A program made the translations under genes and the position numbers. From positions 434,001 to 498,000 of the forward strand of contig NZ_CP011533.1 of the NCBI RefSeq assembly GCF_001704275.1: a stretch of 64,000 nt of DNA. Reading direction: 5' to 3'. The stretch comes from Streptomyces noursei ATCC 11455 (GTDB lineage Bacteria; Actinomycetota; Actinomycetes; Streptomycetales; Streptomycetaceae). The notes under the pieces were generated by a model. That model searched no databases, was not told the origin of the DNA, and saw only the letters and a list, made by a program, of their open reading frames with translations. Position 1 is the first letter of the stretch. Every line of letters starts with the position of its first letter. Shown one piece after another: positions 8,237-60,660 of this stretch.

Positions 8237-8270
8237 GGGCCGGGTGGCACCGCACGGGGCCCGGAGGCCC
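8237..8270. promoter_or_regulatory. Two DosR-like palindromic boxes upstream of the USP
   Basis: GGGCCGGGTGGCAC (8237-8250, one half-site mismatch) and GGGCCCGGAGGCCC (8257-8270, perfect GGGCC-N4-GGCCC). The boxes are spaced 20 bp centre to centre, so they lie on the same helix face. They are 90-123 bp upstream of the minus-strand USP start at 8147. The proposed activator is a DosR/OsdR-type response regulator (inference). Confidence 0.5.
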
Positions 8271-8390
8271 CCTCACCCAGGACCAGGAAATCAGGCCGTC
8301 GCCCCCCTCGCCGGTGCGGGAGTAGAGAGAGTCCCCAGATTCCGAGACATGGTTGCATCCATCAACCATTCCTGCGGTCCGGGGCATGCG

Positions 8391-8426
8391 AACGGCCACC
8401 CTCGGTCACGTTGGAGGGTGGCCGTT
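8391..8426. terminator. Strong intrinsic-terminator-like hairpin
   Basis: A perfect 13-bp stem, AACGGCCACCCTC / GAGGGTGGCCGTT, encloses a 10-nt loop. It lies 40 bp beyond the stop of the minus-strand XRE/TPR gene (8467) and upstream of the USP promoter boxes, so it probably insulates the two genes. Confidence 0.75.
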
Positions 8427-8466
8427 GGGCTGTGTCAGGCCGTGAGTTCCACGCTGGCGTATACAG

Positions 8467-9392
8467 CTATGTGCACAGCAGATGCCCGTGGTCATGAAGC
8501 AAGTCGCCGACTTCGGAGACTTGCTTGAACTCTTCGAGCCGGTGGAGCACAACACGAGCACGTGACGTGATGCGGTCGCTGGCCATGTCCGTGGAAGCAA
8601 TCACAACGCGTCGGGCTTCCTCCGCCGCCTGTTCGGGTTCGTTGGCGTCAGCGAGAGCGACGGCGAGCCACGACCGGTAGAGGGCGACTTCCCGGGCGTG
8701 CGTGGCGTCATAGCGGCTGAGGACATGGGTCAGCAACGGGACGGCTCGCAACGGACGGTGTAGCTCGGTGAAAACCCGGGCGTCCATCACCTCAAGCTCT
8801 TCCCGGCTCACCCAGTAGGCCCACGTGGGTGCTCCCACGTCGACATCTGCTAGTGCGTCGTGTGCCTGCCCGAGAGCCTGCATGGCAGGTTGCGCCTCTC
8901 CGACGCGTGTGTGAGCCCACGCAATCCGGTCGAAGAACAGTGCACGTGTCTTGGCCGGAGCGTCGGCCCCAGCTTCGTCAAGTGCGGCACGGGAGAGATC
9001 AAGACCCGCACGTTCTTGTCCGGTGTTGCTGAACTGGTAGGCGAGACTGCCCGCAAGGTTCGCGACCAAGGGGCCGTTGTCCGCCTGTCGTGCCGCGTCG
9101 ATACCGATGCGGTAAACGCGTTCAGCCTGGGCGTGCTGTCCGGCGTCGCTGGCGATCCAACCGGCGATTTGGGCCAGTTCACCAATCTGGGACAGGAGAG
9201 CGCTGCCTACCGCCTCTGTGTGGGTGCTCTCGCGATACTGCCGCATCGCGGCATTGAGCTCGCGGAACACAGGCGTCATCAGGTCTCCCCCGGTCAGCAC
9301 GTCATCGGCGAGCCGAAAGCCGTGTACCCGGGCGGCAAGGGTCGCTACGTCCTCCCGGCCGATGCGGCGGCCTGACCTTGTGCCGAGCGGCG
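8467..9392 (-). pseudogene. XRE/TPR regulator, C-terminal part (split by MITE)
   Basis: This is the helical TPR-like C-terminal part of a streptomycete XRE regulator: LSQIGELAQIAGWIASDAG, AERVYRIGIDAARQADNGPL, LSRAALDEAG, REVALYRSWLAVALADAN. It continues, after removal of the MITE and one CTAG copy, directly into the HTH fragment at 9557-9872 in the same frame (GDSL joins APLGTR). As it stands the fragment could only be translated from an internal start, such as one inside the MITE at 9438. A strong hairpin lies downstream (8391-8426). Such regulators usually control a divergent small-ORF set, as seen here on the other side. Confidence 0.8.
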
Positions 9393-9396
9393 CTAG

Positions 9397-9556
9397 GGCG
9401 CTTCTGATGGATCTCCGCGGCGTCGCGGCGCCTGCCACGCACGCTCGCGGCGTTGCCGAAATGCCCCCATAGCTCCGCTATGAAGACATCCCGGCGCCTT
9501 GCGATCGCACGCACCAGGCGCCGCTCCTTCTTCCACGGAGATCCATCAGAAGCGCC
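9397..9556. mobile_element. 160-bp MITE with CTAG target duplication
   Basis: The element has 24-bp terminal inverted repeats (9397-9420 and 9533-9556) with one mismatch, beginning GGCGCTTCTGATGGATCTCC. It is flanked by direct CTAG copies (9393-9396, 9557-9560). A subterminal inverted repeat GGCGCCTG (9427-9434) / CAGGCGCC (9515-9522) adds structure. It is too short to encode a transposase. CTAG-type targets are typical of the IS427 group of the IS5 family, which would be the likely mobiliser (inference). It interrupts the XRE/TPR gene, and precise removal restores the frame. Confidence 0.9.
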
Positions 9557-10543: not shown

Positions 10544-10556
10544 CATCCTGGACGCA

Positions 10557-10778: not shown

Positions 10779-11260
10779 CGGGGCGTAGGAGGCCGCAGGA
10801 ATGGGCGCTCCGGATCGACCCGGACTGGAGCGTGCGGCACGTGGGGAAGTGCCTTGTCTGCGGGGAGTTCTGTGTCGATACTGCCTCCTCTGGTGAAGCC
10901 CGAGAGTGGTGTGTCGGCCACGCACGTGCCACCGGCGACGACCACTTCGAGTTGGCAGCCTTTGAGTACATCAGCGCCATCTCGGCCGAACACCCTCCGT
11001 CGATGAACGGCACTTCGCCGACGAAGGCCGGGGCGGGCCGATCGTCCCGCCCGCATAGATGTCCCGCCCTTTGCCGGACTACCGCAGAAGGGCGGGATCA
11101 CCCCGCATCAGGGGAACCTGTTCTCGACATTGCCTGTGCCGGGTTACGGGCCGCCGGTCGGCTGGAAGTGACTGGGAGTGAGGCGCCGCGCTCACTCCCG
11201 CACTTCGGCTTCCCTCCGTGCTGGACGAATGGCCGACTCGCCGACGTGGTACGGGGCTAG
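10775..11260 (+). CDS. DUF7848-like small cysteine protein
   Basis: Residues 1-75 (EWALRIDPDWSVRHVGKCLVC, then CVGHARATGDDHFEL and FEYISAIS) fit the DUF7848-type pattern C-x2-C ... W-x2-HA-x-TGH-x-x-F seen in small streptomycete proteins. A zinc site formed by the Cys pair and His is plausible. The remaining 80 residues (from SMNGTSPTKAG on) have no family character and may be read-through caused by loss of the native stop. It closes the small-ORF run, 10 bp before the Ser/Thr kinase. Confidence 0.5.
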   Translation: MTGRRRPQEWALRIDPDWSVRHVGKCLVCGEFCVDTASSGEAREWCVGHARATGDDHFELAAFEYISAISAEHPPSMNGTSPTKAGAGRSSRPHRCPALCRTTAEGRDHPASGEPVLDIACAGLRAAGRLEVTGSEAPRSLPHFGFPPCWTNGRLADVVRG

Positions 11261-17362: not shown

Positions 17363-17712
17363 CCAGCCCCCTGATCCTCTGCAACGGGCCGGAGTACGGC
17401 TGGCCACCGACCCGATCCGCCGTCGTGCTTCCGGCACCCGCTGGGCTGGGCCCGTACGTCCCCGGCGCATCAGCGATTGGCCGGAGCACGGTGCCGAGGA
17501 GGGCTTGGGTACGCAGCCGGGCTCTCCGTGAGCGAGGGCGATGACCAGGACGAAGGCACCGCCCAGCGGGGCACCGTTTACCCGACCGGATAGTGTGCGC
17601 ATGACAAAATCCCGCATGCGAGCCATTAAAGTCCGATAAAGTGCCTGGCAGGAGTGCCGGGAAGTCTGGTCGGCGGAGAAAGATCACAAGCCGCTTTCGA
17701 CAGGGGACCTCC
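17363..17712. other. Intergenic before the antiporter; no gene seen
   Basis: These 350 bp hold no frame with a family signature. The last 75 bp (after 17640) should contain the antiporter promoter and leader. CATGACAAAATCC (17600-17612) and CATTAAAGTCCGATAAAG (17624-17641) form an AT-rich patch that could be a promoter core. Confidence 0.4.
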
Positions 17713-19284: not shown

Positions 19285-19670
19285 CGACGCACCGCGTCAC
19301 GGTCACAGCGCAATCGGAATCTCCCGCGCCCGGCCACCGCTTCTGAGGCCAAACGAGCCACGGACACCCACCGCCTGATAGAGCTTCGAGCAGACTGGCG
19401 AGGCTGGGGTCGGACGCCCCGACCGGGACCGGCGTCGCGGTACCGCACTGGCCTGTGGCACCCACAGGACGCAGACCGAACCCTTCCGATCACGACGTCG
19501 GCGATGCAAGGGGCGCAGCGCGTCCGTGCCCGAGGTCGAACATCGCGTCCGGCGCTGCCGCCTACCCACCCGCGGTCGGGTCGCGTGCCCCATCCGGGAC
19601 AGAGGTTGGAGCCGTGGTGCCCGCTGACGGCTCCGGCCGGGTGTGGGGGACGCATAGGCCCGTCCGGCGC
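19285..19670. other. Convergent intergenic region; no gene seen
   Basis: These 386 bp lie between the ends of the antiporter and the beta-CASP hydrolase. Reading frames exist on both strands but are Arg/Pro-rich mirrors without start signals. No clear long hairpin was found. Confidence 0.4.
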
Positions 19671-21107
19671 TCAGCGCACCAGGACGTTCTCTCCCGAGCG
19701 TGGCAGGACCGCGTGCCAGCCCAGTTCCCGCGCGATCCGGTCCCGTAGGGCCGTGGAGGCGTCCGGCTCACCGTGCACCAGATACGTGGTGTGCGGAGGC
19801 GGGGCGGCACGCAGCCAGTCCACGATCTGCGCCGCGTCCGCGTGGGCCGAGAAGTGCGGAACGTTCGCCACCTCGGCGCGCACGGGGACGTACTCGCCGA
19901 ACATCTTGAGTGCGCCGGCCCCGTCCACCAGGTCGCGGGCGCGGGTGCCCACCGCCGCGAAGCCCACGATGACCACGGCGTTGCGCGGGTCGGGCAGGCG
20001 CCGCCGCAGGTGATGCAGAACGCGTCCGCCGGTCGCCATGCCCGCCGACGAGACGATGACCGCCGGGCCCTGCGTGTGGTTGATGTCGATCGACTCCTGA
20101 ACGGAGCGGGCGGCGGTGAACGGGTCGGGGCTCAGCGCGGCCGTCCCTGCGGAGGTGATCTCGGGCAGCAGTTCGGCGGCGCGGGAGTGGATGGCGTCCC
20201 GATACACGTCCAGGGCCCTCAGGGCCATGGGGCTGTCGACGTACACCGGGACCTTCTTGGGCAGTGCGCCCTGGGCTCGCAGGGCGGCCAGCTCGTTCAA
20301 CACGACCTCCGTGCGGTCCAGGGCGAAGGCGGGAACGACCACGATTCCTCCGCGTCGCAGCGTGCGGGCCAGCACGTGGCCGAATCGTGCCCGACCGGCC
20401 TCGTCGTCGTGCCGGCGATTGCCGTACGTCGACTCCACCAGCAACACGTCCGCCCCCGAGAACGGCTCGGCCGGGCGCAGCAGGGGATGCCCGGGGCGTC
20501 CGAGGTCGCCGCTCACCGCGAGGGTGTGTCCGTCTTCCAGGGTGAGGTGGGCCCACGTCGAGCCGAGGATGTGTCCGGCGCGTCGCAGGGTCAGCGTGGT
20601 CCCGGTGGTGACGTCGATGGCGGTGTCCACGGGTACCGGATCGAAATATTGCAGGGTGCGGTCGACGTCGGCGTCGTCGTAGAGCGGTTCGGCGACCCGG
20701 TGTTTGGACCAGCCGTGCGCGTTGGCGTGCGCTGCCGCCTCCATCTGCAGGTGGGCGCTGTCACGCAGCACGATCCCGGCCAGTCGCGCGGTGTACGTGC
20801 TGGCGAGGATCGGCCCCCGGAAGCCCTGGCGGACGAGGCGGGGCAGATAGCCGCAGTGGTCCAGGTGCGCGTGGGTGACGACGACGGCCTCGATGTCGGA
20901 TGCGTCGCGAGGAAGACTCCGCCAGTTGCGGCGGCGCAGCTCGCCGAGACCTTGGAAGAGCCCGCAGTCGACGAGGATCCGCGTGTGGTCGCTCTCGACG
21001 AGGAACTTGCTGCCGGTCACGGTCCCGACGCCGCCCATGAAGGTCAGCAGTGCCGGCCTCCGCCGGGGCGCCGCGGGGCCCGTGGACGGCTGAGGTTCGG
21101 TGGACAT
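19671..21107 (-). CDS. Metallo-beta-lactamase/beta-CASP/RMMBL hydrolase (RNase-like)
   Basis: 478 residues from the ATG at 21107, with GAGGCGG upstream. The order is a metallo-beta-lactamase domain ([14 protein letters not shown], metal ligands; [12 protein letters not shown]), a beta-CASP domain ([26 protein letters not shown]) and an RMMBL C-terminus ([24 protein letters not shown]). Proteins of this type (YsgA/CPSF-like) cut RNA or phosphodiesters. It follows a USP by 57 bp on the same strand and could be co-transcribed with the SPFH-USP pair. A decayed copy of its central and C-terminal part lies at 63596-63835. Confidence 0.9.
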
Positions 21108-22982: not shown

Positions 22983-23042
22983 GCCACCCACCTCCTCGAA
23001 GGCGTTTGTTCCACAGTGGCCGATGTCGGTTCGTCGGCGCTT

Positions 23043-23056
23043 GGGCCCTCCGGCCC
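23043..23056. promoter_or_regulatory. DosR-like box upstream of the SPFH gene
   Basis: GGGCCCTCCGGCCC, a perfect GGGCC-N4-GGCCC palindrome 61-74 bp upstream of the SPFH start at 22982. The site is closer to SPFH than to the divergent SpoIIAA-like gene at 23349. Confidence 0.5.
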
Positions 23057-23348
23057 TGCGCTCTGGGTCGATCCGACCACATTCCAGCCCTACCCGACTG
23101 CCCCGGTGCTGCGGGAGAGTCCGCGATTCGTCACCGCTTGCCAATGCCTGCCGACCAGAGGCCCCAGCCGACCCGCGCCTCCGCACGCCTGGCTACGACG
23201 GGTGACCGATCGCCCGCCCAGACCGTTTCGCGCACAGGGCCTTGGGCGAAGGCGGAATACTGGAAGGGGCGAGTCCGCGAACGGGCGGCACGGTACCGCT
23301 CTCGGCGTCCGCGTAAGCCCGTCCCCCTCACGTGGAGGGAGCGACCTC

Positions 23349-25045: not shown

Positions 25046-25134
25046 GGCAGTTGCCTCCTTCTCACCGCGAGCCGGAGCGGGGTACGAACAGGTCTTCCTC
25101 CCTCCAGCGTGCGGTCACCGTCCGTCCGGCGACA

Positions 25135-25148
25135 GGGCCCCTTGGCCC
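25135..25148. promoter_or_regulatory. DosR-like box between a USP and the flavin-binding protein gene
   Basis: GGGCCCCTTGGCCC, a perfect GGGCC-N4-GGCCC. It is 90-103 bp from the minus-strand USP start (25045) and 156-169 bp from the plus-strand gene at 25304, so either or both could be controlled. Confidence 0.5.
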
Positions 25149-25303
25149 AAGGACCGGGGCCGACGGCAGCGGAGAAGGCGTCGAAGCCGACGCGGGCGGG
25201 GCCAGGCGACGGCGTACGGGCGCGGCGGAACGGCCCGAACCACCCCGCGACGGGGGACCATCGGCCCTACGCCCTGTCCGTGCGGTGCGCGCACGCTGAG
25301 GCC

Positions 25304-25759: not shown

Positions 25760-25843
25760 CGACTGTGGCATCCGTCCGTACCGGAGGGCTCAGCGCCGCG
25801 ACGGCCCGACCCACGGCCCCTCTGCCCGGCCGGTCCGTGTCCC

Positions 25844-25857
25844 GGGCCCTTCGGCCC
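25844..25857. promoter_or_regulatory. DosR-like box upstream of the acetyl-CoA operon
   Basis: GGGCCCTTCGGCCC, a perfect GGGCC-N4-GGCCC, 63-76 bp upstream of the ATG at 25920. The position fits an activator bound next to the -35 region of the five-gene operon. Confidence 0.5.
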
Positions 25858-25919
25858 CATGCGCCTGTGCGCGGGGTCCGCGATCCTGTAGTGGGTGCGA
25901 AGCGTCGGAGGAAACCGCG

Positions 25920-29736: not shown

Positions 29737-29738
29737 CG

Positions 29739-34012: not shown

Positions 34013-34168
34013 GGCGGCGCGGAGTGTCCCGCACCCGGGCATCGATCCTGAGGTGCGGCCGAAGGCCCGGCTGTCCTCCTCGGTCGGGACCGTCTCTCCC
34101 CTCTCCCTCGTCCCGCTCCGCGCATCGAGTGACCGGTCGGCCCGGCGGGGACGGCCGGCCGCGCAACA

Positions 34169-34182
34169 GGGCCGAGTGGCTC
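34169..34182. promoter_or_regulatory. Near-match DosR-like box upstream of the CBS-BON gene
   Basis: GGGCCGAGTGGCTC: the GGGCC half is perfect and the other half has one mismatch to GGCCC. It is 78-91 bp upstream of the ATG at 34260. A nearly identical site (GGGCCGGTCGGCTC) precedes the DUF1876 gene. Confidence 0.4.
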
Positions 34183-34259
34183 ATTTCGGTGCGACCGGCG
34201 GCCCAGCCACGCTGGAGGTGCGGCCGCGCCGCCGGCCGCCGGGCCGGAAGGAGCCGGAG

Positions 34260-36674: not shown

Positions 36675-36732
36675 GACTGGCCTCCTCACCGGCGTCGAAC
36701 CCACTGTCGCGCGGGAACGTGGTCGCAGATGT

Positions 36733-36746
36733 GGGCCGATCGTCCC
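36733..36746. promoter_or_regulatory. DosR-like box upstream of the CBS gene
   Basis: GGGCCGATCGTCCC: one half is the GGGCC form found here, the other the GTCCC form of the classical DosR box. It is 59-72 bp upstream of the minus-strand start at 36674. Confidence 0.5.
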
Positions 36747-36951
36747 CGCCGGCAGCCGAAGGGCCCACGGTTTCCGCCCACCGACGCCCCGGGGAGCAGC
36801 CTCGGACGACTGCGGAACGGCCGCCCGGCCCGCAGGACGGGAACCGTCCGGTCCTGCCCCCGAGTCGTCCGAGCTGATGCGCTGGAAGCCAGCCCCGGTA
36901 CGCGCACACGGACGCCCGCCCCGTGGCGGCCATGCCGGCGTACCGACAGCA

Positions 36952-37816: not shown

Positions 37817-38193
37817 GGCGGTCCTCCTCATCACCGGCCGCCCGAAGGAGGCAGCCGCCGGAGGACCAGGGCACCGGAGCCGCGGGCCCGCCGGCGGACG
37901 GACCATGAACGTGCCGGCCCGCACTGGCGAGCCGGCGTTCGCGATCAAGGAGGACCGCCCACTTCTCGCAGGCCCTGATTGCGCGGTGCGCGGTCTCGCT
38001 CCGCTTCTCCGCGTCTGCCCGTCCTCCTTGTCACTTTCAGTGAAGCGCATGGCGCTTCCGAGGGACAGTTCCGGTCGGCCCCCGCACCATGGGCCGAACG
38101 ACCCTTTGGCCAGGCACCTCGCCCCATAACCCGCCTGGCTCCGGCTGTGGCAGGTTCGGCACTGGGCACCGGTGCACAAGTGAGGTGAGGGCG
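37817..38193. other. Divergent promoter region, CRP-like gene / DUF1918-USP-V-ATPase genes
   Basis: This 377-bp gap holds no gene. It contains a DosR-like box at 38091-38104 and should carry the promoters of both the minus-strand CRP-like gene and the plus-strand run that leads into the V/A-ATPase operon. Confidence 0.45.
38091..38104. promoter_or_regulatory. Near-match DosR-like box upstream of the DUF1918 gene
   Basis: GGGCCGAACGACCC, one mismatch in the second half-site, 90-103 bp upstream of the GTG at 38194. The core CCGAACG is shared with the site before Hsp20 (47862-47875). Confidence 0.4.
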
Positions 38194-38430
38194 GTGAAGG
38201 CACACATAGGCGATCAACTCGTGGTCTCGTCGCCGACCACAGGAACCCCACGGCGGGACGGCGAGGTCGTCGGACTGCACCACGAGGACGGGACCCCGCC
38301 CTACGACGTCCGCTGGTCGGACACCGATCAGGTCTCGCTCTTCTTCCCCGGCCCGGACACCCGCATCCGGCACCTCCACTGCTCGTCGGGAAACGCACCG
38401 CCGGGCACCGTCACTCCGAAGGAGGCGTGA
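38194..38430 (+). CDS. DUF1918-family protein
   Basis: 78 residues from the GTG at 38194; GTGAGGTGAGGG lies just upstream. The family pattern is complete: GDQLVVSSPTTGTPRRDGEV, VGLHHEDGTPPYDVRWSD, SLFFPGPDTRI. DUF1918 proteins are small SH3-like proteins induced in low-oxygen or stress conditions in actinobacteria. They have no known biochemical role. The gene is followed one base later by a broken USP and then by the V/A-ATPase operon, so all may share a promoter. Confidence 0.88.
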   Translation: MKAHIGDQLVVSSPTTGTPRRDGEVVGLHHEDGTPPYDVRWSDTDQVSLFFPGPDTRIRHLHCSSGNAPPGTVTPKEA

Positions 38431-38431
38431 G

Positions 38432-38844
38432 ATGGGCGACGCGGTCCTCGTCGGACTCGACGGCACCGGCAACAGTGAGCCGGCCGTGCGCTGGGGCGCC
38501 GAGGAGGCGGCCGTCCGCAACCTGCCGCTGCACCTCCTGCATGCCTGGACCTCCCAGCCCAGGCCGGTCTCCTCAGTGGCGGAGGACGCCGAACTACGCC
38601 GCTACGGAACCGAAGTTCTCCGCCGGGCCGAGGCCGCGGCCAAGGAGCTGCATCCGGAAATTCCGGTGAAGGCCGAGCAGGTCGACGAGGAAGCTGCTGG
38701 CCCGCGCTGCTGGATGCCTGCTCACGGGCCGGGCTGCTGATCATCGGACGTCGTACACAGCGCATGCCCATGCCCCTCGGGCCGTCCGTGCTCGCCCTCC
38801 TGCACCACTCCCACTGCCCGGTCGCTGTCGTTCCACGGCGGTGA
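38432..38844 (+). pseudogene. Single-domain universal stress protein, frameshifted
   Basis: The first 85 residues are normal (VLVGLDGTGNSEPAVRWGAE, LPLHLLHAW). The frame is then lost near 38685-38705 and stops at 38740. The missing end is found one frame over: ALLDACSRAGLLIIGRRTQR, SVLALLHHSHCPVAVVPRR, ending TGA 38842-38844. An intact version would have about 137 residues, a single Usp domain, unlike the eight two-domain USPs of this window. A one- or two-base indel explains it; a sequencing error is possible. Confidence 0.7.
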
Positions 38845-38939: not shown

Positions 38940-39419
38940 ATGGCCGGGTTGCGTGATCTGCTGATGCGCTTCCGTCCGGTCGGCACGCCGGGGCCTGCGG
39001 CCACCGGCGTACCCGCCGATCGCACCGCGGAGCTGACCCTGGAGCTGACGCCGACCCTGGCACTACTGGACGGCACGGCCGACGAGGCCGAAGCGGTCCG
39101 TGGCGCGGCGCGCGGCGACGCCGACCGCATCCGCCGGGACGCCGCCCACCGCGCGGAGGTCATCACGGCCCGTGCGGCTGCCCTCTCCCAGCGCATCCGA
39201 ACGAAGACCGCGGACCGGCGGCTGGAGCTCGGCCGACAAGAGGCCGCCGCGCTGCGCGAGGAAGGCCGATGCACGGAAGCCGCAGTCAGACGCCGGGCCG
39301 CGGCACGGATCCCGGCCATGGCGGACCGGTTGGCCGACGAGGTTCGTCGTCAACTCGGCCTGCCCACCACCCACGCCGGACTCCCCGATGCTTCAGGGGA
39401 GCGGGACGGCGGCCCATGA
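38940..39419 (+). CDS. V/A-type ATPase peripheral-stalk subunit, G/H-like
   Basis: 159 residues from the ATG at 38940, with GGAGGGAGG upstream. Most of it is one long Ala/Arg/Glu helix (EAEAVRGAARGDADRIRRDA, EVITARAAALSQRIRTKTAD, RRLELGRQEAAALREEGR) as in the G/H subunit that pairs with subunit E in the peripheral stalk. A non-helical N-terminus of about 40 residues precedes it. It is the first gene of the nine-gene operon and overlaps the next by 4 bp. Identification rests on shape and position, not on a sequence motif. Confidence 0.75.
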   Translation: MAGLRDLLMRFRPVGTPGPAATGVPADRTAELTLELTPTLALLDGTADEAEAVRGAARGDADRIRRDAAHRAEVITARAAALSQRIRTKTADRRLELGRQEAAALREEGRCTEAAVRRRAAARIPAMADRLADEVRRQLGLPTTHAGLPDASGERDGGP

Positions 39420-40322
39420 GTGCCGCATGGGTAGCCGGGGTGACCAGGGCGCGCGAGCTGTTGGGCCGCTGTCCTGGCACCGCCGGCGCCCGGCGGGTCG
39501 CGGCGGGCGGCACGTTGGACGAGGCCCTGCGTCGTCTGACCACCACCCCCTACCAACGTCGGCTGGCGGTCGGCATGTCCTTGCCGGCGGCGCAGCGGGC
39601 CGTCACGGCCACTTTGCTCTGGCATCTTCGGGTGCTCGCCGGCTGGCTGCCACGACGCGGGGTGGAGTGTCTGCGGCTACTGGCGTCGGGTTTCGAGATC
39701 ACCAACATCGAGAGCCGCTTCCGGCTGCTGAGCGGTGCTGCGTCGGAGCCGCCACCGTATGAGCTGGGAGCGCTGGCAACCGCCTGGCGCCGCCTCTCCC
39801 ACACCACCCGGCCGGAGGGGCTGCGGGCTGCTCTGGCCGCCTCGGCCTGGCGTGATCTCGGCGGTACGGCAGCCGAGCTGGCCGTCGGGCTTCGACTGAC
39901 CGCAGCGGCCAGAACCGCCGTGGCAGTCCCCTGCGCGTCCCGTTGGTCGGCGGGCCGCGCCGCCCTTCTCGTCGCCCGGGAACGGTTCGTACACGGTCGG
40001 GAACTGCCGGCGCAGGCCACCGGCCCGGCCGCACGACTCCTCGGCGTCGCCCACCGCGCTCCTGACTTCCGCGCATTCACGCGTCAGCTCCCCCCGTCGG
40101 CACGGTGGGCACTGAACGACGTCGACGATCCGGCCGATCTGTGGCAGGCGGAGGGGCGGTGGTGGCGGGATATCGAGCAGGACGGCCGGGGTATGGCGCG
40201 CCGCGCTCGGTACGACGCGATTCCCGTGGTGGGCGTGGTCGCGGTCCTCTCGACCGACGCATGGCGCACCCGCGCCGCGCTGGAACTCGCCTCGCGCGGC
40301 GCCTCTACCTTGGAGGGCTTCG

Positions 40323-40345
<23 letters not shown>
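39416..40345 (+). CDS. V/A-type ATPase subunit C (AC39/d family)
   Basis: 309 residues, ATGA overlap with the previous stop. It is helical throughout with the AC39 landmarks SRFRLLSGAASEPPPYELGA, in place of the usual 'N.k.ilR.k' region, and a C-terminal helical bundle. Early ARELLGRCPGTAGARRVAAG, with LDEALRRLTTTPYQRRL, is typical of the first bundle. Subunit C links the central shaft to the membrane ring. Divergence is high, as for actinobacterial V/A-ATPases. Its 3' end overlaps the subunit I gene by 23 bp. Confidence 0.75.
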
Positions 40346-42362
<2,017 letters not shown>

Positions 42363-42366
<4 letters not shown>

Positions 42367-42899
42367 CCCCCGCCGCACAGACCCACGCGATCGCCCCGGC
42401 CGACCCGCTGGCACCCGTCCGGACGGCGCTGCTGCGCGCCGCCGAGGAGGAGGCCCACCAACTGGTGGCCGCGGCGCACCGGGACGCCGAGGCGGTCATC
42501 GCCACCGCGCGGTCCCGTTCGACCGCCGTACTGCGCGAGGCACGCCGTCAGGGAGAGCAGGACGGCGGGCGAGCCGCGGCCGACGCCACGGCCCGAGCCC
42601 GCCACACCGTGCGCACCGGGCTCCTCCGCGCCCAGGCCGAGGCGTACGACGAACTGCGCCGGACGGTCCTGTCGCGGGTGCGGCAGTGCCGGAGGGAACC
42701 GGGGTACCCCGCCGTGCGGGAGCAGCTGTCCGACCAGGTGCGCCGGCTGCTCGGCCCGGAGGCCGTCGTCATCGAGCACCCGCGGGGCGGGGTGATCGGC
42801 ACGGCCGGCGGGCGGACCGTGGATCTGAGCCTGGACGCCCTGGCACTCCGTGTGTTCGACGGCGCCGGTGCCGGGATCGAGTCGCTGTGGCGGACCTGA
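42363..42899 (+). CDS. V/A-type ATPase subunit E
   Basis: 178 residues from the GTG at 42363. A long N-terminal helix (RTALLRAAEEEAHQLVAAAH, DAEAVIATARSRSTAVLREA) leads into a globular end: SRVRQCRREPGYPAVREQL, VVIEHPRGGVIGTAGGRTVD, SLDALALRVFDGAGAGIESL. The GG-hairpin region followed by D-x-S-L is the mark of subunit E, the peripheral stalk partner of G/H. Its stop lies inside the start of subunit A (12-bp overlap). Confidence 0.88.
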
Positions 42900-44635
42900 C
42901 GGCGGCGGAGGCGCCTGCCCGCCCGACCGCCGCCACCCGTATCCTGCGGGTGGCCGGGCCACTCGTCGAGTTGGAGAACGCCGGCGGGGTCGCCATGAAC
43001 GACCTGGTGCTGCTCGGCGCGGAGCGGGTACCGGCCGAGGTCGTCGAGATCACCACATCCCGGGTCACCGTCCAGGCCTACGAGTACACCGGCGGTCTGG
43101 CACCGGGCCGGCACGCCTTCCCGTTGGGCGCACCGGTCTGCGCGCGGCTCTCCCCGGGCCTGCTGGGCGGGGTGTTCGACGGCCTGCTCCGCCCGCTGAC
43201 GGACTTCGGCGACCGGCTCGCGCCGGGCACCGGGACGGACGCACCCCCGGCACGCCGCTGGGCGTTCGACGCGGCCGTCGCCAAGGGGCAGGAGGTGAGC
43301 GAGGGCACGGTGATCGGGGAGGCGGGAAACCCGGACGGTCCGCGGACCCGGATTCTCGTGCCGCCGGGCTGCGCGGGCGAGGTCACGTACGTGGCCGACT
43401 CCGCCGAGCACCCCGAGGACACGGCGCTGGCCGTGGTCGGCGGCACCGAGATCCGGTCGGTGACCGAATGGCCGGTGCGCCGGCCGCGGCCGGTCCGGGA
43501 ACGGGTCCCCGCGCGCACACTGCTGACCACCGGACAGCGGGTGATCGATCTGCTCTTCCCCGTGGCCCGGGGCAGCACGGTCGCAGTACCCGGGGGCTTC
43601 GGCACGGGCAAGACGCTGTTGCTCCAGCAGATCGCCAAGTGGTGCGACGCCGACGTGATCGTCTACATCGGCTGTGGTGAGCGCGGCAACGAGATGGCCG
43701 ACGTCATCACGGAGTTCGCCGAGCTGACCGACCCCCGGACCGGCGGGCGCCTGGCGGACCGCACCGTGATCATCGCCAACACCTCCAACATGCCGATGAT
43801 GGCCCGGGAGACGAGCATCCACACCGGTGCCACCGTCGCCGAGTACTTCCGCGACATGGGGCACGACGTGGTGGTCATCGCCGACTCCACCTCCCGTTGG
43901 GCCGAGGCGCTACGGGAATTCGCCTCGCGGACCGGCGAGCTGCCCGCGGAGGAGGGCTATCCGGCCGGTCTGGCCTCGGCCCTCGCGGCCTTCTACGAAC
44001 GGGCCGGAGCGGTGACCACGCTCGGGGCGGGGCCCGGCTCGGTGACCGTCTTCGGGGCCGTCTCACCACCCGGCGGCGACCTGGCCGAGCCGGTCACCGC
44101 GCACACCGAACGCTGTGTGCGCGGCCGGTGGACGCTCGACCGGGATCTGGCCTACGCGCGCCACTACCCCGCGGTGTCGTGGTCGCACTCGTTCTCCAGG
44201 GATACCGACGTCCTCAGCACGGGCCCGGACGGGCGGGAGACCGCCGGCCGTCGAGCCGCCGTGGCCGAACTACTGACCGCGGCCGACCGCTTGGCGGACC
44301 TCGTCGAACTGGTCGGCGTCGGTGCACTGCCGGCACCGGAACGGGTCAGCGTGCTGGCCGGCCGCCTCATCCGGGAGGGACTGCTCCAGCAGAGCGCCCT
44401 CTCCCCCAACGACACGCACTGCACCCCGGCGAAGACGGCCGCGCTCGCCGACGCGGTGCTCGCCGTCATCGAGCGGTGCCGATCCCTGGTGGCATCCGGT
44501 ACTCCGCCGGACGTCGTGGAACAGGCGGACTTCACCGCCCTGTTGCGGGCCCGCGAGGAGGCGGGGCCCGGCGACGCCGCCACCGTGCGGGCCGCCCGCG
44601 ACACCACCCTCGCCGTCCTGGGGGAACTCCGATGA
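42887..44635 (+). CDS. atpA: V/A-type ATPase catalytic subunit A
   Basis: 582 residues from the GTG at 42887. Walker A is GGFGTGKT (236-243; the usual form is GPFGSGKT), the catalytic Glu265 is in IGCGERGNEMADVI, and the Walker B region is VVVIADSTSRWAEALRE. The non-homologous insert typical of V-type A subunits is present (about 120-190, with KGQEVSEGTVIGEAGN). The NTSNMPMMARETSIHTGATV segment is invariant in the family. It hydrolyses or makes ATP together with subunit B. A V/A-type ATPase is uncommon in Streptomyces, where the F-type enzyme is the housekeeping ATP synthase. Confidence 0.95.
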   Translation: MADLTAAEAPARPTAATRILRVAGPLVELENAGGVAMNDLVLLGAERVPAEVVEITTSRVTVQAYEYTGGLAPGRHAFPLGAPVCARLSPGLLGGVFDGLLRPLTDFGDRLAPGTGTDAPPARRWAFDAAVAKGQEVSEGTVIGEAGNPDGPRTRILVPPGCAGEVTYVADSAEHPEDTALAVVGGTEIRSVTEWPVRRPRPVRERVPARTLLTTGQRVIDLLFPVARGSTVAVPGGFGTGKTLLLQQIAKWCDADVIVYIGCGERGNEMADVITEFAELTDPRTGGRLADRTVIIANTSNMPMMARETSIHTGATVAEYFRDMGHDVVVIADSTSRWAEALREFASRTGELPAEEGYPAGLASALAAFYERAGAVTTLGAGPGSVTVFGAVSPPGGDLAEPVTAHTERCVRGRWTLDRDLAYARHYPAVSWSHSFSRDTDVLSTGPDGRETAGRRAAVAELLTAADRLADLVELVGVGALPAPERVSVLAGRLIREGLLQQSALSPNDTHCTPAKTAALADAVLAVIERCRSLVASGTPPDVVEQADFTALLRAREEAGPGDAATVRAARDTTLAVLGELR

Positions 44636-46032
44636 GCCCCGACCGCACACCGGTCGAATACACCTCGGTGCGCGAACTGCGCGGGCCGCTCATCGTGGTG
44701 GCGGGGGTCGGCGGGGTCGGCTGGGACGAGTTCGCAACGATCACTCTCGCTTCGGGGGAACGACGGCACGGTGTCGTCCTGGAGGTGCGCGACGACCTCG
44801 CGGTCGTCGCGGTGCTGGAAGGCACCGGCGGCATGGATCCGGCGGGGCTGCGCATGGCGTTCGACGGCCACCCGCTGACGGTCCCGGTCGGGGAGGGTTG
44901 GCTGGGTCGGACCTGCGACGGCAAAGGGGCTCCGCGCGATGGCGGGCCACCCGTCTTCGGCCGGACCTCCGCCCCCGTGGAGGGGGTGGCGATCAACCCC
45001 GTGCGCCGGCGGCCGCCCGGTGAGCCGGTGCTGACCGGCATCGCCGCGGTGGACGTGCTCACCACCCTGGTGCGCGGGCAGAAGCTTCCGATCTTCTCGA
45101 CCGCCGGTCTGCCGCACCTCGAACTCGCGGTGCAGATCGCCGCCCAGGCCACCACGACAGGAGAGCGGTTCAGCGTCGTCTTCGCGGGCATGGGGCTGAC
45201 CCATGCGGACGCGTTCTTCGTCCAAGAGGCGCTGGCGGAACGCGCCGCCGCCGGTGAACTGTGCCTGCTGCTCAACACCGCCGACGATCCGGTGATCGAG
45301 CGCATCCTCACACCGCGGCTGGCGCTCACGGTCGCCGAACACCTCGCGTTCGACGGCGGGCGGCACGTCCTGGTGATCATGACGGACATGACGTCCTACG
45401 CCGAGGCGCTGCGCGAGGTCTCCGCAGCCCGCGGGGAGGTGCCCGGCCGCCGGGCCTACCCCGGCTACCTCTACAGCGACCTGGCCTCCCTGTACGAGCG
45501 GTGCGGCCGCATCGTCGACCGGCCGGGCTCGGTGACCGTGCTGCCCGTCCTGACCATGCCCGCCGGGGACATCACCCACCCCGTCCCCGACCTCACCGGC
45601 TACATCACCGAAGGACAGATCGTCCTCGCCCCGCAGATCCACGCCGAAGGCGTGTACCCACCCGTGGACGCGCTGTCCTCCCTCTCCCGCCTGATGCGCA
45701 AGGGAGCCGGACCCGGTCGGACTCGGGGCGACCACCTGGACGTGGCGGCACAGCTCACCGCCGCGCTCGCCCGCGCCCGGCAGGCCGGTGAACTCGCCGA
45801 ACTCGTCGGGGAATCCGCCCTGAGCCCGGCCGACCGCCGCTACCTGGCGATGTATCCGAGGTACCTCCACGACTTCCTGCACCAGGAGCGCGACCGGACA
45901 CTGGCCCTGGACGAGTCACTGGAGCGTGCCTGGCGGGTCCTGCTGACGCTGCCGCCCGGCGAACTGGGCATGCTCCCGACGGCGTTGTTGGACGCACGGA
46001 ACTCCGACGTCTCTCCGGGAGCCGCGCCGTGA
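44632..46032 (+). CDS. atpB: V/A-type ATPase subunit B (non-catalytic nucleotide-binding)
   Basis: 466 residues, ATGA overlap with subunit A. The B signature QKLPIFSTAGLPHLELAVQI takes the place of the Walker A loop. Later conserved parts are VVFAGMGLTHADAFFVQEAL, HVLVIMTDMTSYAEALREVS, RAYPGYLYSDLASLYERCGR, and PVLTMPAGDITHPVPDLTGY. It has the normal length, and the C-terminal domain (PADRRYLAMYPRYLHDFL) is intact. The subunit names here follow V-type use, so atpB means the V-type B subunit and not the F-type a subunit. Confidence 0.95.
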   Translation: MSPDRTPVEYTSVRELRGPLIVVAGVGGVGWDEFATITLASGERRHGVVLEVRDDLAVVAVLEGTGGMDPAGLRMAFDGHPLTVPVGEGWLGRTCDGKGAPRDGGPPVFGRTSAPVEGVAINPVRRRPPGEPVLTGIAAVDVLTTLVRGQKLPIFSTAGLPHLELAVQIAAQATTTGERFSVVFAGMGLTHADAFFVQEALAERAAAGELCLLLNTADDPVIERILTPRLALTVAEHLAFDGGRHVLVIMTDMTSYAEALREVSAARGEVPGRRAYPGYLYSDLASLYERCGRIVDRPGSVTVLPVLTMPAGDITHPVPDLTGYITEGQIVLAPQIHAEGVYPPVDALSSLSRLMRKGAGPGRTRGDHLDVAAQLTAALARARQAGELAELVGESALSPADRRYLAMYPRYLHDFLHQERDRTLALDESLERAWRVLLTLPPGELGMLPTALLDARNSDVSPGAAP

Positions 46033-46658
46033 CGGCGTCCGCCCCTCCTCCCGTCGGCCGCGCCGCCCGGCTGCGGCTGCGGCGCACCCTTCACGTCGCC
46101 ACCCGCGGTGCGCAGTTGCTCGACCGGCAGCTCCACCTCCTCCGGGCCGAACTCGCGGAGCTGCGGCGGGCGGAGGCCGCGGCCCGTGACGAGTGGGAGG
46201 CACGGGTGCGGGAGGCCCGGACCTGGCTGCTGCGCGGATTGCTGATCAGCGGGGAGGACGCCCTGCGGACGGCCTCGCGCGTGCCGCCCGCGCACGTCAC
46301 CGTGGCATGGGAGGACTCACTGGGCGTGCGCCACCCGGGCCGGACCGCCGTGTACCCGGGCGTCACGGACGCGTCCGACGCCGCCCCCCGCAACACCGCC
46401 CTGGCCCACGCCGGTACCTCGTACCGCGCGGCGGTCGAGGCGGCCGCGCGGTACGGCACCGCCTCGACCGCCGCACGCCTGGTCGAGGCCCGGCTACGCG
46501 ACACCACCGTCCGGGTCAGAGCACTGCACCGGCTCCGCATACCCCGTCTCCAACAGAACCTCACCGCCATCGAGCTGGCCCTGGAACAGTCGGAGCACGA
46601 GGACGCCCTCCGACGCCGCTGGGCCGCGCGACGCACCCGTCCGGCCGCCGGCGGCTGA
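46029..46658 (+). CDS. V/A-type ATPase subunit D (central shaft)
   Basis: 209 residues from the GTG at 46029, overlapping subunit B by 4 bp. Two long helices frame it: RLRLRRTLHVATRGAQLLDR, QLHLLRAELAELRRAEAAAR near the start, and DTTVRVRALHRLRIPRLQQN, LTAIELALEQSEHEDALRRR at the end, the coiled-coil shaft that turns inside the A3B3 head. It is the last gene of the operon. Its last codons are part of the 73-bp repeat shared with the USP at 7269. Confidence 0.88.
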   Translation: MTASAPPPVGRAARLRLRRTLHVATRGAQLLDRQLHLLRAELAELRRAEAAARDEWEARVREARTWLLRGLLISGEDALRTASRVPPAHVTVAWEDSLGVRHPGRTAVYPGVTDASDAAPRNTALAHAGTSYRAAVEAAARYGTASTAARLVEARLRDTTVRVRALHRLRIPRLQQNLTAIELALEQSEHEDALRRRWAARRTRPAAGG

Positions 46659-46718: not shown

Positions 46719-46998
46719 TGGTGCGCCCCGGACGGGGAAGGACCGGCGCCATGGACGGTTCCTCCGGCTCCCCGCCCGGACCGCCGCCACCGTTGCCCCG
46801 CTCGTCGCACGGATCGAGCAGGACCTCGCGCCCCGCCGCGGCGCGGAATTCGGACGCTGAGGTCAGCACCCTTCGCGCGGTCGCGGGACGAGTCCACGAA
46901 AGGGCCGGTCGGCTCATGGATCGAGACGCTTCAGCCCTGCTGGAGACTCATGGCGCGGGCCGAACCTGGTACTGGGAGATCGCCGCAGGAGGTACGTC
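46659..46998. other. Intergenic between the V/A-ATPase operon and the DUF1876 gene
   Basis: This 340-bp gap has no supported gene. It contains the remainder of the 73-bp repeat and, at 46902-46915, a DosR-like box. Open frames in it are Ser/Pro/Arg-rich and lack ribosome sites. Confidence 0.4.
46902..46915. promoter_or_regulatory. Near-match DosR-like box upstream of the DUF1876 gene
   Basis: GGGCCGGTCGGCTC, one mismatch in the second half-site, 84-97 bp upstream of the GTG at 46999. Confidence 0.4.
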
Positions 46999-47754: not shown

Positions 47755-48245
47755 CGTTGCTCCTCAGTCAAGACGGCCATGGGGCGGTGGGAGGCTGCCC
47801 CTCGTTGTCGAGCCTGCGCCTCGGCCCTCTGCCGGCCAATGAGCCGATGGGCGTCGGTCCCGGACCGAACGGCCCACGGTGCGGCGACGGATGGTGCATC
47901 GGTGGGGACTGCGCGCGTGAGGTGCCCGTCAGTCGCTCGCACTACCGTGGTGGGGTGGCCGAGCCACGTATACCGGTACCGGCCGCGGTGGAGGCGTGCT
48001 GTGGGCGAGGACAGCTGCCGGACGGACGGGGTGCATACACAACTGCACGCACTGTCAGACGACGAGAGGCTGCGGCACCTTCAGGGTGCGATTGCCGGCC
48101 CACCCCTGGCCGGTCGTCCGGCGCTACCTCCGGCCGACCGGCCAGAGCGCTCCTCGTCGCGGGGACCGACCGGCCCTCCCGCGAAGCGCGCGCACTGCGC
48201 AGTCTGGGAGACACGACGCGCGCGTCCGTCGCGTGGGAGGCAGCC
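47755..48245. other. Intergenic Hsp20 / USP; divergent promoters
   Basis: 491 bp without a supported gene. Site GGACCGAACGGCCC (47862-47875), one mismatch from GGGCC-N4-GGCCC, lies 108-121 bp from Hsp20 and 371 bp from the USP start. The frame running into the USP from 47649 is Arg/Pro-rich and has no ribosome site. Confidence 0.45.
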
Positions 48246-52157: not shown

Positions 52158-52394
52158 CGGTTCCTCCGGTCGTTCGCTGTTGCGCTGTTCTCCCGGACGA
52201 CCTCGCCGGCGTGGTCCTACTCGGAGATCCGCCCGAAGGCGTTCGCAGCTCCTGGTCAGCGGCCGAGTCGTCGTGAGACACCGGGCGGCCAGGTGGATGG
52301 AACCATCGAGGGCAACCGCTTGGAAGCCATACCTGGTGTCTCTGGGTCTCTGGACCTTACGACGGCCCGTCCAACCCACGAACAAGGTAGGACC

Positions 52395-52488
52395 GATCGG
52401 TCGGCATGATCAGCGAGGCAGACCTCGCTCACCGCCTGCCGAAGGACCAGGTGGGCCACTTCGTAGAGGTCGTCTGCGCGACCGCCTA
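52395..52488 (+). pseudogene. C-terminal fragment of a CBS-domain protein
   Basis: The short frame SVGMISEADLAHRLPKDQVG, HFVEVVCATA and a TAA stop matches the last 30 residues of the CBS protein at 31431 (LVGMISEADLARHLSEKQVG, RFVEMVCTPS). The rest of the gene is absent; the IS110 remnant ends about 240 bp away on the left. Confidence 0.7.
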
Positions 52489-52747
52489 ACCGGTGCAGTG
52501 CCGACTTATAAACTTGATCAGCTGCCTGAGGAGGCGAGGGAACTCCTGGCTTCGGCGGGGTGCCAGGCTGCAGTAGGACAGCCGGCCGCAGGAGACGCAG
52601 TTCCCAGGCGGCCGGCTGCCAGTCCAGGTCACGTGAGAAATAGCGTCTGGTCCCCGGAGGCCACCAGCCAAATGCCGTCGTGTCATAGGTCGTTGGCCTG
52701 GAACAACAGCCGGATGGCACGTCGCACCAGCAGTCGGCAATCGGGAA

Positions 52748-53647
52748 CCATGGCTGCGTGAACCCCAGTACGTGTGACGCCTCTTCCGTCGCGTTGACGG
52801 TTTGGGATCGAAGCCCTTTCCTGCCCCGCACCGGATCGGGGGTACGCAGCCCGAAGACGGTGGACCTGATGATCTTGATGGTTTCGTCCAGGTCCTCCAC
52901 CGCGCGCAACAGCCGATCACTCGCCTCCGGGTGGTCGACGAAACGGATCGCGCTCTGCAATGTCATCCCGGTGGCGAACAGCCGCTGGATCGCCAGGTCG
53001 TGCGGATCGCGCGCGATCCGCTCCCGATCCCTGAGCAGCGCCACCTGGCCCGCAGCGATGCGCCGCTCCGCCAGCTCCATTGCCAGCGCGGCCTGACCGG
53101 CGAAGGTCAGCAGCGGCCCCGTCTCCGGCTCCGTGAACGATTCGCGTCCCTGCAGCCGGGCCAGTTGCAGGACTCCGCGTACCCGCTCACCGGTAGCCAT
53201 CGGGACCGCGACGGCGGGCCCCAGCCCCGACCAGCGCGGCGGACCGACGGTGACCCTGGGGTCGTGCTCGATGTCATGGCTGATCAACGGGCCCTTGGCG
53301 GTGATCGCCGCGCCCGCGAACGACCCACGGCGGGGAAGAACCAGGCCGCGGTGGGCTACGGCGTCGACACCGGACGCCAGCTCCACGCGCAGACGGTCGC
53401 CGTCGACAGGCATGACCAGGACGCCGAGATCAGCGGAGAGGATGCGCACCGCGTGGCCGACGATCATCGCGAGCACATGCGTCTCCTCGGCATCCGGCAA
53501 CAGCCCGGCGACGATCTCGCTGTTGGCCTCCAGCCACTGCTGGCGGTAGCGGGCCTCCTCGTAGAGCCGGGCGTGCTCGACGGCCACCCCCGCCGCCACC
53601 GCCAGCGCAAGCCTCCGCAGCAGCCGGAATCGGTGGTCCCGCCACAC
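52748..53647 (-). pseudogene. DevS/DosS-like GAF sensor histidine kinase, truncated at both ends
   Basis: The preserved part starts at the end of a first GAF domain (LALAVAAGVAVEHARLYEEA), covers the second GAF domain (EETHVLAMIVGHAVRILSAD, GVLVMPVDGDRLRVELASG, AVAVPMATGERVRGVLQLAR) and the HisKA_3 box (RERIARDPHDLAIQRLFATG, with the phospho-His but Leu changed to Pro before it). The start of the ATPase-linker (VNATEEASHVLGF) follows. The N-terminal haem-type GAF and the HATPase domain are missing, and the frame then runs into unrelated DNA to 52256. The closest functional class is the low-oxygen sensor kinase DevS/OsdK. It should be non-functional. Confidence 0.78.
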
Positions 53648-57901: not shown

Positions 57902-57939
57902 ACGGCTTGCCCTCCGCATCATGCGAACAATTACGTCAT

Positions 57940-59213: not shown

Positions 59214-59390
59214 TCGGGAGCCGGCCGCCGCAACCGGACCGGCCGGCCCCCTCCTGCAGACCGTGCCGCCGGCGGAGGTCTTCGCCGCGCTGGGCACCTC
59301 GCCGCGTGGGCTCACCGCGGCCGAGGCGACGGCGAGGCGGGACCGCTGCGGCCCCAACGAGCTGCCGCACGCCCGCCGGCGGCGGCCGAC
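59206..59390 (+). pseudogene. Cation-transporting P-type ATPase, N-terminal fragment
   Basis: From the GTG at 59206, about 60 residues match the Cation_ATPase_N segment: QTVPPAEVFAALGTSPRGLT, AAEATARRDRCGPNELPHAR. The membrane and catalytic parts are missing. At about 59380 the sequence changes, in another frame, to a TrkA domain. The original operon thus may have been epimerase followed by P-type ATPase. Confidence 0.65.
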
Positions 59391-59953
59391 TGGGCTCCCA
59401 GATCGCCCAGGTGCTCTCCGCCGCCCAGAACGACGTCACCCTCGTCGACCGCAACGAGGACCGCATCGCCGAACTCGCGGGCCGCCGCACCGTACGTCTT
59501 GAGGCCGGCGACGCCTGCCAGGCCGATGTCCTCGAGCACGCCGGAGCCCTCACCGCCGACGTCGTCATCGCCACCACCGGCGACGACGCGGACAACCTCC
59601 TCATCAGCCTGCCCGCCAAGCGCCGGTTCGCTGTTCCGCGGGTCGCCGCCCGCGTCAACGACACCGAGAACACCTGGCTGTTCGACCACCGCTGGGGCGT
59701 CGACGTCCCCGTACCCGCCGCCACCCCGCTGATCTCCCTCATCGAGGAGGCCACCGGAGCCACCGATACCGTCGCACTGCTCCGCCTCAGCAAGGCAGGC
59801 GTCAATGTCGTCGAAACCGCGATCACGCCGCAGTCCCGTGCGGCCGGACGAGCCCTTGCCGATATCGCGCTCCCCGCCGGTACCGTCATCGCCACCGTCG
59901 ACTTCCTGAGCTTCGTCGGGGCCCTCTGCGAACGACGGGGGCAGGATCGTTGA
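59378..59953 (+). pseudogene. TrkA-type potassium channel regulator, 5'-truncated
   Basis: Reading from about 59380: GGGRLGSQIAQVLSAAQNDV (NAD loop lacking its first strand), TLVDRNEDRIAELAGR, VEIxATGD-like VVIATTGDDADNLLISLPAK, then TrkA-C: VVETAITPQSRAAGRALADI, ALPAGTVIATV. No start codon precedes it in frame. About 190 residues of an expected 220 remain. It probably lost its 5' end in the deletion that removed the P-type ATPase body. Confidence 0.7.
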
Positions 59954-60131
59954 CAAGGCCAGGCCACCCTGTCCCTCAGTACACTGGTGGACAGCGCCGA
60001 CTTCCTCGTCGCCCGCACGGTGACGGGCCATGACCGAACGTGCCAGGCCGCCTTCGCTCATCGTGTTCGTGGGGTACGCGACTCCACGTTCCGCCAGGGA
60101 GATCGTGGTCGAAACCGAAAGGAGCCGGCCG

Positions 60132-60578
60132 ATGAACGTCTCAAAGGTGATGAGTGCTCCGGCGGTGGCCGTTCCGGTCGGGACGCATCTGCGGGAAGCG
60201 GCCCGCCAGATGGAAGAGTACGGGGTTGGTTGCCTGGTGGTCACGGACGGCGGGAGGCTGCAAGGCATCGTCACCGACCGCGACCTCGCGGTGCGCATGC
60301 TGACCAGGGGGCTGGACGCGGAGGAGCGGGTGGATGCGGTGATGACCCTGCCCGTGATCACGGTGGATGTGACCGACGACGTTCACGACGCATACCGGGC
60401 CTTCCGTAATTCCGGGGTACGCCGCCTGCCCGTACTGGACGGGCGGCGGCCCGTAGGCATGCTGACCGTGGACGACCTGCTCATGGACGTCTTCCAGCGA
60501 GTGGGCGATCTGCTGGGCCCGGTGGCCTGGAGCATGGTGGAGGGATCAGCCGGGTCGTGCACCACGGATCAGAGCTGA
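60132..60578 (+). CDS. CBS-domain pair protein
   Basis: 148 residues from the ATG at 60132, with AAAGGAG upstream. CBS1: VSKVMSAPAVAVPVGTHLRE ... [18 protein letters not shown]2: VDAVMTLPVITVDVTDDVHD ... RPVGMLTVDDLLMDV, ending FQRVGDLLGPVAWSMVEG. It is the close paralogue of the CBS protein at 36228, with the same length and end. It stands between the TrkA fragment and the formate dehydrogenase relics. Confidence 0.9.
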   Translation: MNVSKVMSAPAVAVPVGTHLREAARQMEEYGVGCLVVTDGGRLQGIVTDRDLAVRMLTRGLDAEERVDAVMTLPVITVDVTDDVHDAYRAFRNSGVRRLPVLDGRRPVGMLTVDDLLMDVFQRVGDLLGPVAWSMVEGSAGSCTTDQS

Positions 60579-60646
60579 ATGCCGCCTGGGCGTGCCGGCG
60601 CGCGACGGTCGCGGTAAACCCGTACGCCGAGGCGTTCGGAGACACC

Positions 60647-60660
60647 GGGCCGCGCTGCCC
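60647..60660. promoter_or_regulatory. Near-match DosR-like box upstream of the formate dehydrogenase relics
   Basis: GGGCCGCGCTGCCC, one mismatch in the second half, 55-68 bp upstream of the ATG at 60715. This is the same distance as for intact stress genes, so the lost operon may have belonged to the same regulon. Confidence 0.35.

Follow-up and report, generated by a model that had tools for sequence, protein, structure and literature searches.

OsdR boxes in a putative dormancy and stress island of Streptomyces noursei ATCC 11455, with a V/A-type ATPase operon as a probable regulon member

A GC-rich palindrome, GGGCC-N4-GGCCC, recurs between the genes of a 64,000-nucleotide stretch of Streptomyces noursei ATCC 11455 (positions 434001-498000 of the single 9,815,884-base contig NZ_CP011533.1; GC content 70%), and an original prediction took it for a DosR-like box placed before stress genes. 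Is this palindrome a regulatory site, which protein would read it, and which genes would come under its control? Throughout, this whole stretch is called the window, and positions are those of the window unless they are given as contig positions. The palindrome is real, already published and not new: Urem 2016 (PMC5069765) described it as the OsdR box of Streptomyces, AGGGCCGATCGGCCCT. The core of the prediction, a DosR/OsdR-type box before stress genes, is borne out. The finding is an OsdR regulon island, real and ordinary in kind. We consider it very probable, judging from sequence, that the window is a streptomycete dormancy and stress island whose boxes are most likely bound by a distantly encoded DevR/DosR-type regulator, which would switch the island on at low oxygen.

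The palindrome and the published OsdR box

In the published work (PMC5069765), AGGGCCGATCGGCCCT was derived from the DNA upstream of osdR in 12 Streptomyces species, 43 predicted OsdR sites are given, and S. coelicolor OsdR binds the box in electrophoretic mobility shift assays (EMSAs), binding being abolished by mutation of the box. A symmetrised position weight matrix (PWM) was built from the 25 S. coelicolor site sequences in Table 1 of that paper, which are predictions verified in part by EMSA there. Sites of at least 11 bits were counted as boxes in the scans of the window and the background, and sites of at least 9 bits in the counts of box pairs.

All eleven copies named in the original prediction were recovered, four of them perfect (8257, 23043, 25135 and 25844) and seven imperfect, out of 27 imperfect copies in the window. 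The six at 23043, 25844, 36733, 38091, 46902 and 47862 fit the published box, and the five at 8237, 8257, 25135, 34169 and 60647 do not (scores in Table 1); four strong sites, at 25254, 48163, 11035 and 17449, were absent from the prediction. Its free N4 spacer proved wrong, as the middle four bases matter. At 80 named regulator loci of other genomes, perfect half-sites are densest between genes when the spacer has outer G and C and at least one inner A or T (230 and 158 per Mb); for other outer bases the figures are 54-86 per Mb against a background of 0-25, and G-S-S-C spacers do not rise above background (7 versus 8).

Box enrichment in the window

The window contains 12 PWM sites of at least 11 bits, all 12 outside predicted genes, and 9 of them lie 43-119 bp before a start codon (all nine within 200 bp). 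Thirty other 20-kb stretches of the same genome yielded 26 sites, 19 coding and 7 noncoding, which corresponds to a 12.8-fold higher noncoding rate in the window (binomial p 1.6e-7) and to a different coding/noncoding split (Fisher p 3.7e-5). The 100 kb beside the window hold no coding and 5 noncoding sites, and 100 kb around three kinase genes hold 3 coding and 4 noncoding ones.

A stricter pattern, GGGMCSWWSGKCCC, occurs 21 times genome-wide versus 10 times for its backwards control; the window has four of these copies (Poisson 1.3e-5), the regulator locus described below has two, and 17 of the 21 are noncoding. Among the 13 noncoding copies outside the window, 8 lie at most 200 bp before a predicted start and 3 are more than 350 bp from any predicted start, one of the three being the box of the regulator, whose gene was missed by the gene finder.

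Could the palindromes be chance products of 70% GC DNA, selected by looking at promoters? The loose motif speaks for this, as it is not over-represented across the genome, where 153 perfect copies in 9.8 Mb (roughly one in every 64 kb) compare with 298 for a backwards control, and some of the originally predicted sites, namely 8257 and 60647, do look like chance. Nor did the genome-wide promoter enrichment that the original prediction led one to look for appear with the PWM, as 7 of the 26 background sites are noncoding and the noncoding share of bases is 20%. Within the window, however, the noncoding excess was obtained with an external matrix, the noncoding GC content is alike (0.69 in the window, 0.70 in the background), and 300 column-permuted palindromic matrices gave at most 5 noncoding sites. 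Perfect loose copies number 4 against a shuffle mean of 0.79, well under the roughly two by chance estimated in the prediction, and copies with at most one mismatch number 31 against 21.0; in both cases 2 of 100 shuffles reach the observed count. A chance origin is refuted for the set, for which we regard it as highly improbable, and is possible for single sites such as 19657.

A regulator pair encoded far from the island

No DevR-type regulator was found in the window (best E 0.19), which holds a truncated OsdK/DevS-like kinase gene lacking its first GAF domain and its ATPase domain, adjoined by a piece of an IS110 transposase. The genes of an intact pair, a DevR/DosR-type response regulator and a kinase, lie convergently at the other end of an 8.2-Mb interval (Table 1). 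The best PDB match of this regulator is M. tuberculosis DevR (3c3w, E 7.5e-68), its nearest two named loci are from Streptomyces (87% and 83%), and its recognition helix reads EKTIKN versus EKTVKN in DevR. K179, K182 and N183 of DosR touch DNA. Published work describes K182 of DosR as a DNA-binding residue. The pair is itself furnished with boxes: one of 21.8 bits at contig position 8725613, about 90 bp before the regulator gene, one of 17.9 bits at 8728411, upstream of the kinase gene and separating it from a COX1 gene, and one of 16.8 bits at 8724087, 102 bp before a pyridoxamine-oxidase-like gene.

In the mechanism that we propose, a fall in oxygen would lead the GAF-GAF-HisKA_3 kinase to phosphorylate the regulator, which would bind the OsdR boxes of the island and switch its genes on. 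Binding in ATCC 11455, activation rather than repression, and oxygen as the signal are what we infer here from the sequences. The arrangement suggests that boxes can persist in an island whose regulator is encoded elsewhere in the genome.

Other observations concern the regulators and boxes outside the window. Contig positions 8728411-8733447, near the COX1 box, carry genes for a globin-reductase (flavohaemoglobin-like) and an Rrf2-family regulator, an oxygen/NO neighbourhood. A 21.8-bit box at 557321, 59 kb outside the window, has no predicted start within 350 bp, and a 16.8-bit box at 1035762, far from the island, lies 110 bp before a USP-like gene (universal stress protein, USP, from its first residues only). 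At the locus of the COX1 box, the regulator (L028:712-1443) has 7 extra receiver-domain residues that the other three aligned regulators do not have.

OsdR boxes in other genomes

Of the 80 named regulator loci, 79 were classed as OsdR-type, including one assigned by default because no regulator gene had been predicted in it. These 79 contain 287 noncoding boxes (1051 per Mb) versus 59 coding ones (48 per Mb), about 22-fold denser between genes, and in 55 of the 79 a box lies at most 250 bp before the regulator gene. At the regulator loci, 275 boxes are followed by a start within 400 bp; their median distance to it is 98 bp, and 138 of them lie at 80-120 bp. That the boxes are GC-rich terminator hairpins is even less credible than a chance origin: they are inverted repeats between genes, and 3 of the 13 noncoding strict copies elsewhere have no predicted start nearby, but such a preferred distance before starts, and the lack of enrichment of other palindromes of equal composition, stand against it. 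Pairs of boxes at the 80 loci peak at a spacing of 21-24 bp (21 of 79 pairs spaced 8-130 bp), which lends support to the predicted pairing at two helical turns; in the window this is best exemplified by 38068/38091 and not, as had been proposed, by 8237/8257.

A close orthologue of the SPFH protein of the window (56-59% identity) was found in 7 of 120 other genomes of the genus. In three of the seven stretches relatives of OsdK or OsdR are encoded as well (both kinds in G014 and G083, kinases alone in G068), and these stretches contain 10, 13 and 7 noncoding boxes, respectively; the remaining four (G117, G033, G020 and G090) have none. Elsewhere in those four genomes, a search that mixes both regulator kinds found two full-length DevR-type regulators, one partial match and, in one genome, none.

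Several results weigh against the proposed control of the island by the distant pair. A second DevR-like regulator (contig positions 4891037-4891678) is 63% identical to the OsdR-type protein and could share its boxes; it keeps the EKTIKN helix, and a 15.6-bit box at 4890955 adjoins its gene. That the boxes are real and bound mainly by this second protein is nevertheless unlikely, as that box lies past the 3′ end of the gene, 64 bp before a neighbouring one, and as box density in other genomes is high at OsdR-type loci, although just 1 of the 80 loci is of the second kind and the two kinds were not compared. In base-by-base footprinting (19657 excluded), conservation of the boxes does not exceed that of random noncoding 16-mers in the close relative G175 (9 sites, P 0.13) and exceeds it slightly in G311 (6 sites, P 0.025), and the box at 25844 is lost in G175. 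Orthologues in seven relatives have a box in 6 of 12 cases where the window gene has one and in 5 of 12 where it does not, which argues that conservation is island-wide rather than promoter by promoter. The boxes at 11035 and 17449 lie more than 220 bp from any predicted start, and gene starts were taken from a purpose-made simple gene finder that missed the regulator gene itself. With these points counted, the distant OsdR-type regulator remains the most likely binder of the boxes.

The V/A-type ATPase operon

The window encodes a V/A-type ATPase, and the same genome encodes an F-type synthase elsewhere, whose operon has no noncoding box of at least 9 bits. A search of 391 other genomes of the genus found the V/A-ATPase B subunit in 36, about 9% of the sampled species (17 of 198 in a first draw). 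A box lies 62-125 bp before the first ATPase gene in 22 of the 33 relatives with a readable operon head, 22 cases that are not independent, as they come from box-dense DNA (904 noncoding versus 51 coding boxes per Mb in the held-out set) and from related genomes. The first set comprised 16 relatives besides G175, of which 14 had a readable head (L215 and L222 did not); in 11 of the 14 the first gene is preceded, at about 62-103 bp, by a box scoring 13.9-22.4 bits (the distance in L220 was worked out by hand), and in 10 of these 11 a divergent gene lies 71-82 bp on the other side of the box. In a held-out set of 19 further genomes, 11 have such a box at 91-125 bp, with scores of 12.6-18.8 bits. 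In this set it is present in all 10 genomes whose divergent neighbour is at most 250 bp away and absent from G265 and G243, where that neighbour is 298 and 888 bp away. The divergent neighbour is a CBS-BON gene in L208, the sole case examined. The 11 genomes without a box are L209, L211, L212, G311, G265, G243 (9.4 bits), G353, G290, G219, G269 and G255.

When the promoters are aligned without gaps and centred on the box, similarity is 91% in the columns of the box and 58% and 51% in its flanks. With gaps, the box region (about 0.85) is surpassed by a stretch further downstream (0.86).

The ATPases nearest to that of the window are those of G175, G311 and G265. G175 lacks a stretch matching about 39197-42767 of the window and with it the front of its operon. 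In the window itself the ATPase genes follow a DUF1918 gene and a USP remnant in a run headed by the tandem boxes 38068 and 38091, 119 and 96 bp before the DUF1918 gene; that this run forms one transcription unit is plausible. The box at 38091 is identical in G175 and G311, where 38068 scores just 7.2 and 3.3 bits. After the remnant, up to about 38842, residues in another frame resemble the C-terminal end of a USP, in our reading of the likeness. A candidate promoter box for the ATPase at 38779 was rejected, with 7.1 bits and a position inside this tail. The ATPase promoter of the window seems to be altered, and the tandem boxes may be what the operon depends on. On balance we favour the view that the V/A-type ATPase is a standing member of the OsdR regulon, through a box near -100 that is usually shared with a divergent gene, and that in the lineage of the window this promoter would have gone, the operon being read instead from the DUF1918/USP promoter.

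Individual sites and further features

Table 1. Predicted boxes, weaker sites and genes. Positions are those of the window, except in the last two lines (contig positions).
Feature	Position	Strand	Score (bits)	Remarks
Pair 8237/8257	8236..8271		4.8/3.3	before USP gene (7269-8147, -)
OsdR box 11035, CGGGCCGATCGTCCCG	11034..11049		14.7	229 bp before Ser/Thr kinase gene (11271-12677, +)
OsdR box 17449, GGGCCCGTACGTCCCC	17448..17463		12.7	257 bp before Na+/H+ exchanger gene (17713-19284, +)
Box-like site 19657	19656..19671		11.6	between convergent genes
OsdR box 23043, TGGGCCCTCCGGCCCT	23042..23057		13.0	67 bp before SPFH gene (22191-22982, -)
Weak site 25135, AGGGCCCCTTGGCCCA	25134..25149		5.2	about 97 bp before USP gene (24173-25045, -)
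OsdR box 25254, GGGGACCATCGGCCCT	25253..25268		15.6	43 bp before pyridoxamine-oxidase-like gene (25304-25759, +); 215 bp before USP gene (24173-25045, -)
OsdR box 25844, CGGGCCCTTCGGCCCC	25843..25858		13.2	69 bp before AMP-binding/E1-alpha/E1-beta/E2/carrier-protein genes (25920-31384, +)
Weak pair 34148/34169	34147..34183		9.9/2.7	21 bp apart; before CBS-BON gene (34260-34976, +)
OsdR box 36733, TGGGCCGATCGTCCCC	36732..36747		15.8	top score in window; 65 bp before CBS-domain gene (36228-36674, -)
Tandem OsdR boxes 38068/38091	38067..38105		11.0/12.4	23 bp apart
DUF1918 gene (PF08940)	38194..38430	+		heads co-directional run to USP remnant and V/A-ATPase genes
USP remnant	38432..38740	+		N-terminal Usp piece
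V/A-type ATPase genes	38940..46658	+		two without Pfam match, then subunit genes
ATPase subunit I	40323-41720	+		
ATPase subunit c	41717-42139	+		
ATPase F-like subunit	42136-42366	+		just below Pfam cut-off
ATPase-operon gene	42363-42899	+		no Pfam match
ATPase subunit A	42887-44635	+		
ATPase subunit B	44632-46032	+		
ATPase subunit D	46029-46658	+		
OsdR box 46902, AGGGCCGGTCGGCTCA	46901..46916		11.1	90 bp before Rv2632c-like gene (46999-47274, +; PF08962)
OsdR box 47862, CGGACCGAACGGCCCA	47861..47876		11.3	114 bp before Hsp20 gene (47317-47754, -)
OsdR box 48163, GGGACCGACCGGCCCT	48162..48177		15.0	76 bp before USP gene (48246-49124, +)
IS110 transposase piece	51555-52157			adjoins truncated kinase
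Truncated OsdK/DevS-like kinase	52256..53599	-		one GAF and HisKA_3; aligns to about residues 170-480 of intact relatives
Site 60647	60646..60661		-0.3	before formate dehydrogenase open reading frame (61013-63466)
DevR/DosR-type response regulator	8725712-8726446	+		found via GerE domain and list of open reading frames
Kinase	8726349-8728310	-		two GAF stretches, HisKA_3, HATPase_c; assigned by domains; convergent with regulator

The distances of 55-125 bp given in the original prediction are roughly right for the USP, SPFH, AMP-binding/E1-E2, CBS, DUF1918, Rv2632c-like and Hsp20 genes (those of low-scoring sites were worked out by hand; the name DUF1876 for the Rv2632c-like gene comes from that prediction alone). 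They do not hold for formate dehydrogenase, as 60647 lies about 290-360 bp before the possible starts of that frame, and the site was rejected on score and distance. The frame itself combines Complex1_51K and molybdopterin domains. The site at 8257 was rejected on score, and 19657, which is not conserved in G175 and lies more than 400 bp from any predicted start, is probably a chance occurrence.

The weak sites are not all to be dismissed, because spacers with other outer bases also exceed background at the regulator loci. For three of them, one or two close relatives share at least 15 of the 16 bases: 8237 (16 in G175, 15 in G311; its partner 8257 is conserved less well), 25135 (15 in G175, versus 46% in its flanks) and 34169 (15 in G175). 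A quarter (25%) of aligned noncoding 16-mers likewise reach 15/16 in the G175 comparison, and these three sites may have a weak or secondary use. Among the stronger boxes, 23043 keeps 15 of 16 bases in G175, and the Hsp20 box at 47862 scores higher in relatives (14.9 bits in G175, 15.1 in G311). Rfam and tRNA scans of the window gave no matches.

Comparison with known systems

The island resembles the S. coelicolor OsdR regulon (SCO0204/SCO0203) in its 16-bp palindrome and, by Table 1 of PMC5069765, in the distances to starts, and the two have USPs and a pyridoxamine oxidase-like gene in common. In S. coelicolor the osdR-osdK operon lies inside the island (PMC5069765), whereas here the island holds a kinase remnant and the pair is distant and convergent. 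The window also differs by its V/A-type ATPase genes; the words ATPase, ATP synthase, formate and Hsp20 do not occur in the main text of PMC5069765. With the M. tuberculosis DosR/DevR regulon the island shares the regulator family and the recognition-helix pattern, but GGGCC half-sites prevail here and the island genes differ. The DosR box is usually written with a GGGAC half-site. OsdR also recognises the DosR box, and USP and heat-shock genes are under DosR control (PMC5069765). The B subunit of the window matches the V-type Na+-ATPase 5ze9 (E 5e-139) and the V/A-ATPase 3a5c (E 3e-126); unlike these entries, the ATPase of the window accompanies an F-type synthase and sits among OsdR boxes. 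Among the matches listed in a search of open-licence literature, none linked a V-type ATPase with Streptomyces or OsdR by title or start of abstract.

Conclusions

Much of how this island is laid out can be explained by a regulatory code already in print, and the same code recurs at OsdR-type loci of many streptomycetes. The V/A-type ATPase, which ties dormancy control to an energy-converting enzyme, is the part most worth following: if it does belong to the regulon, a second ion pump or ATP synthase would be at work in mycelium that is dormant or starved of oxygen.

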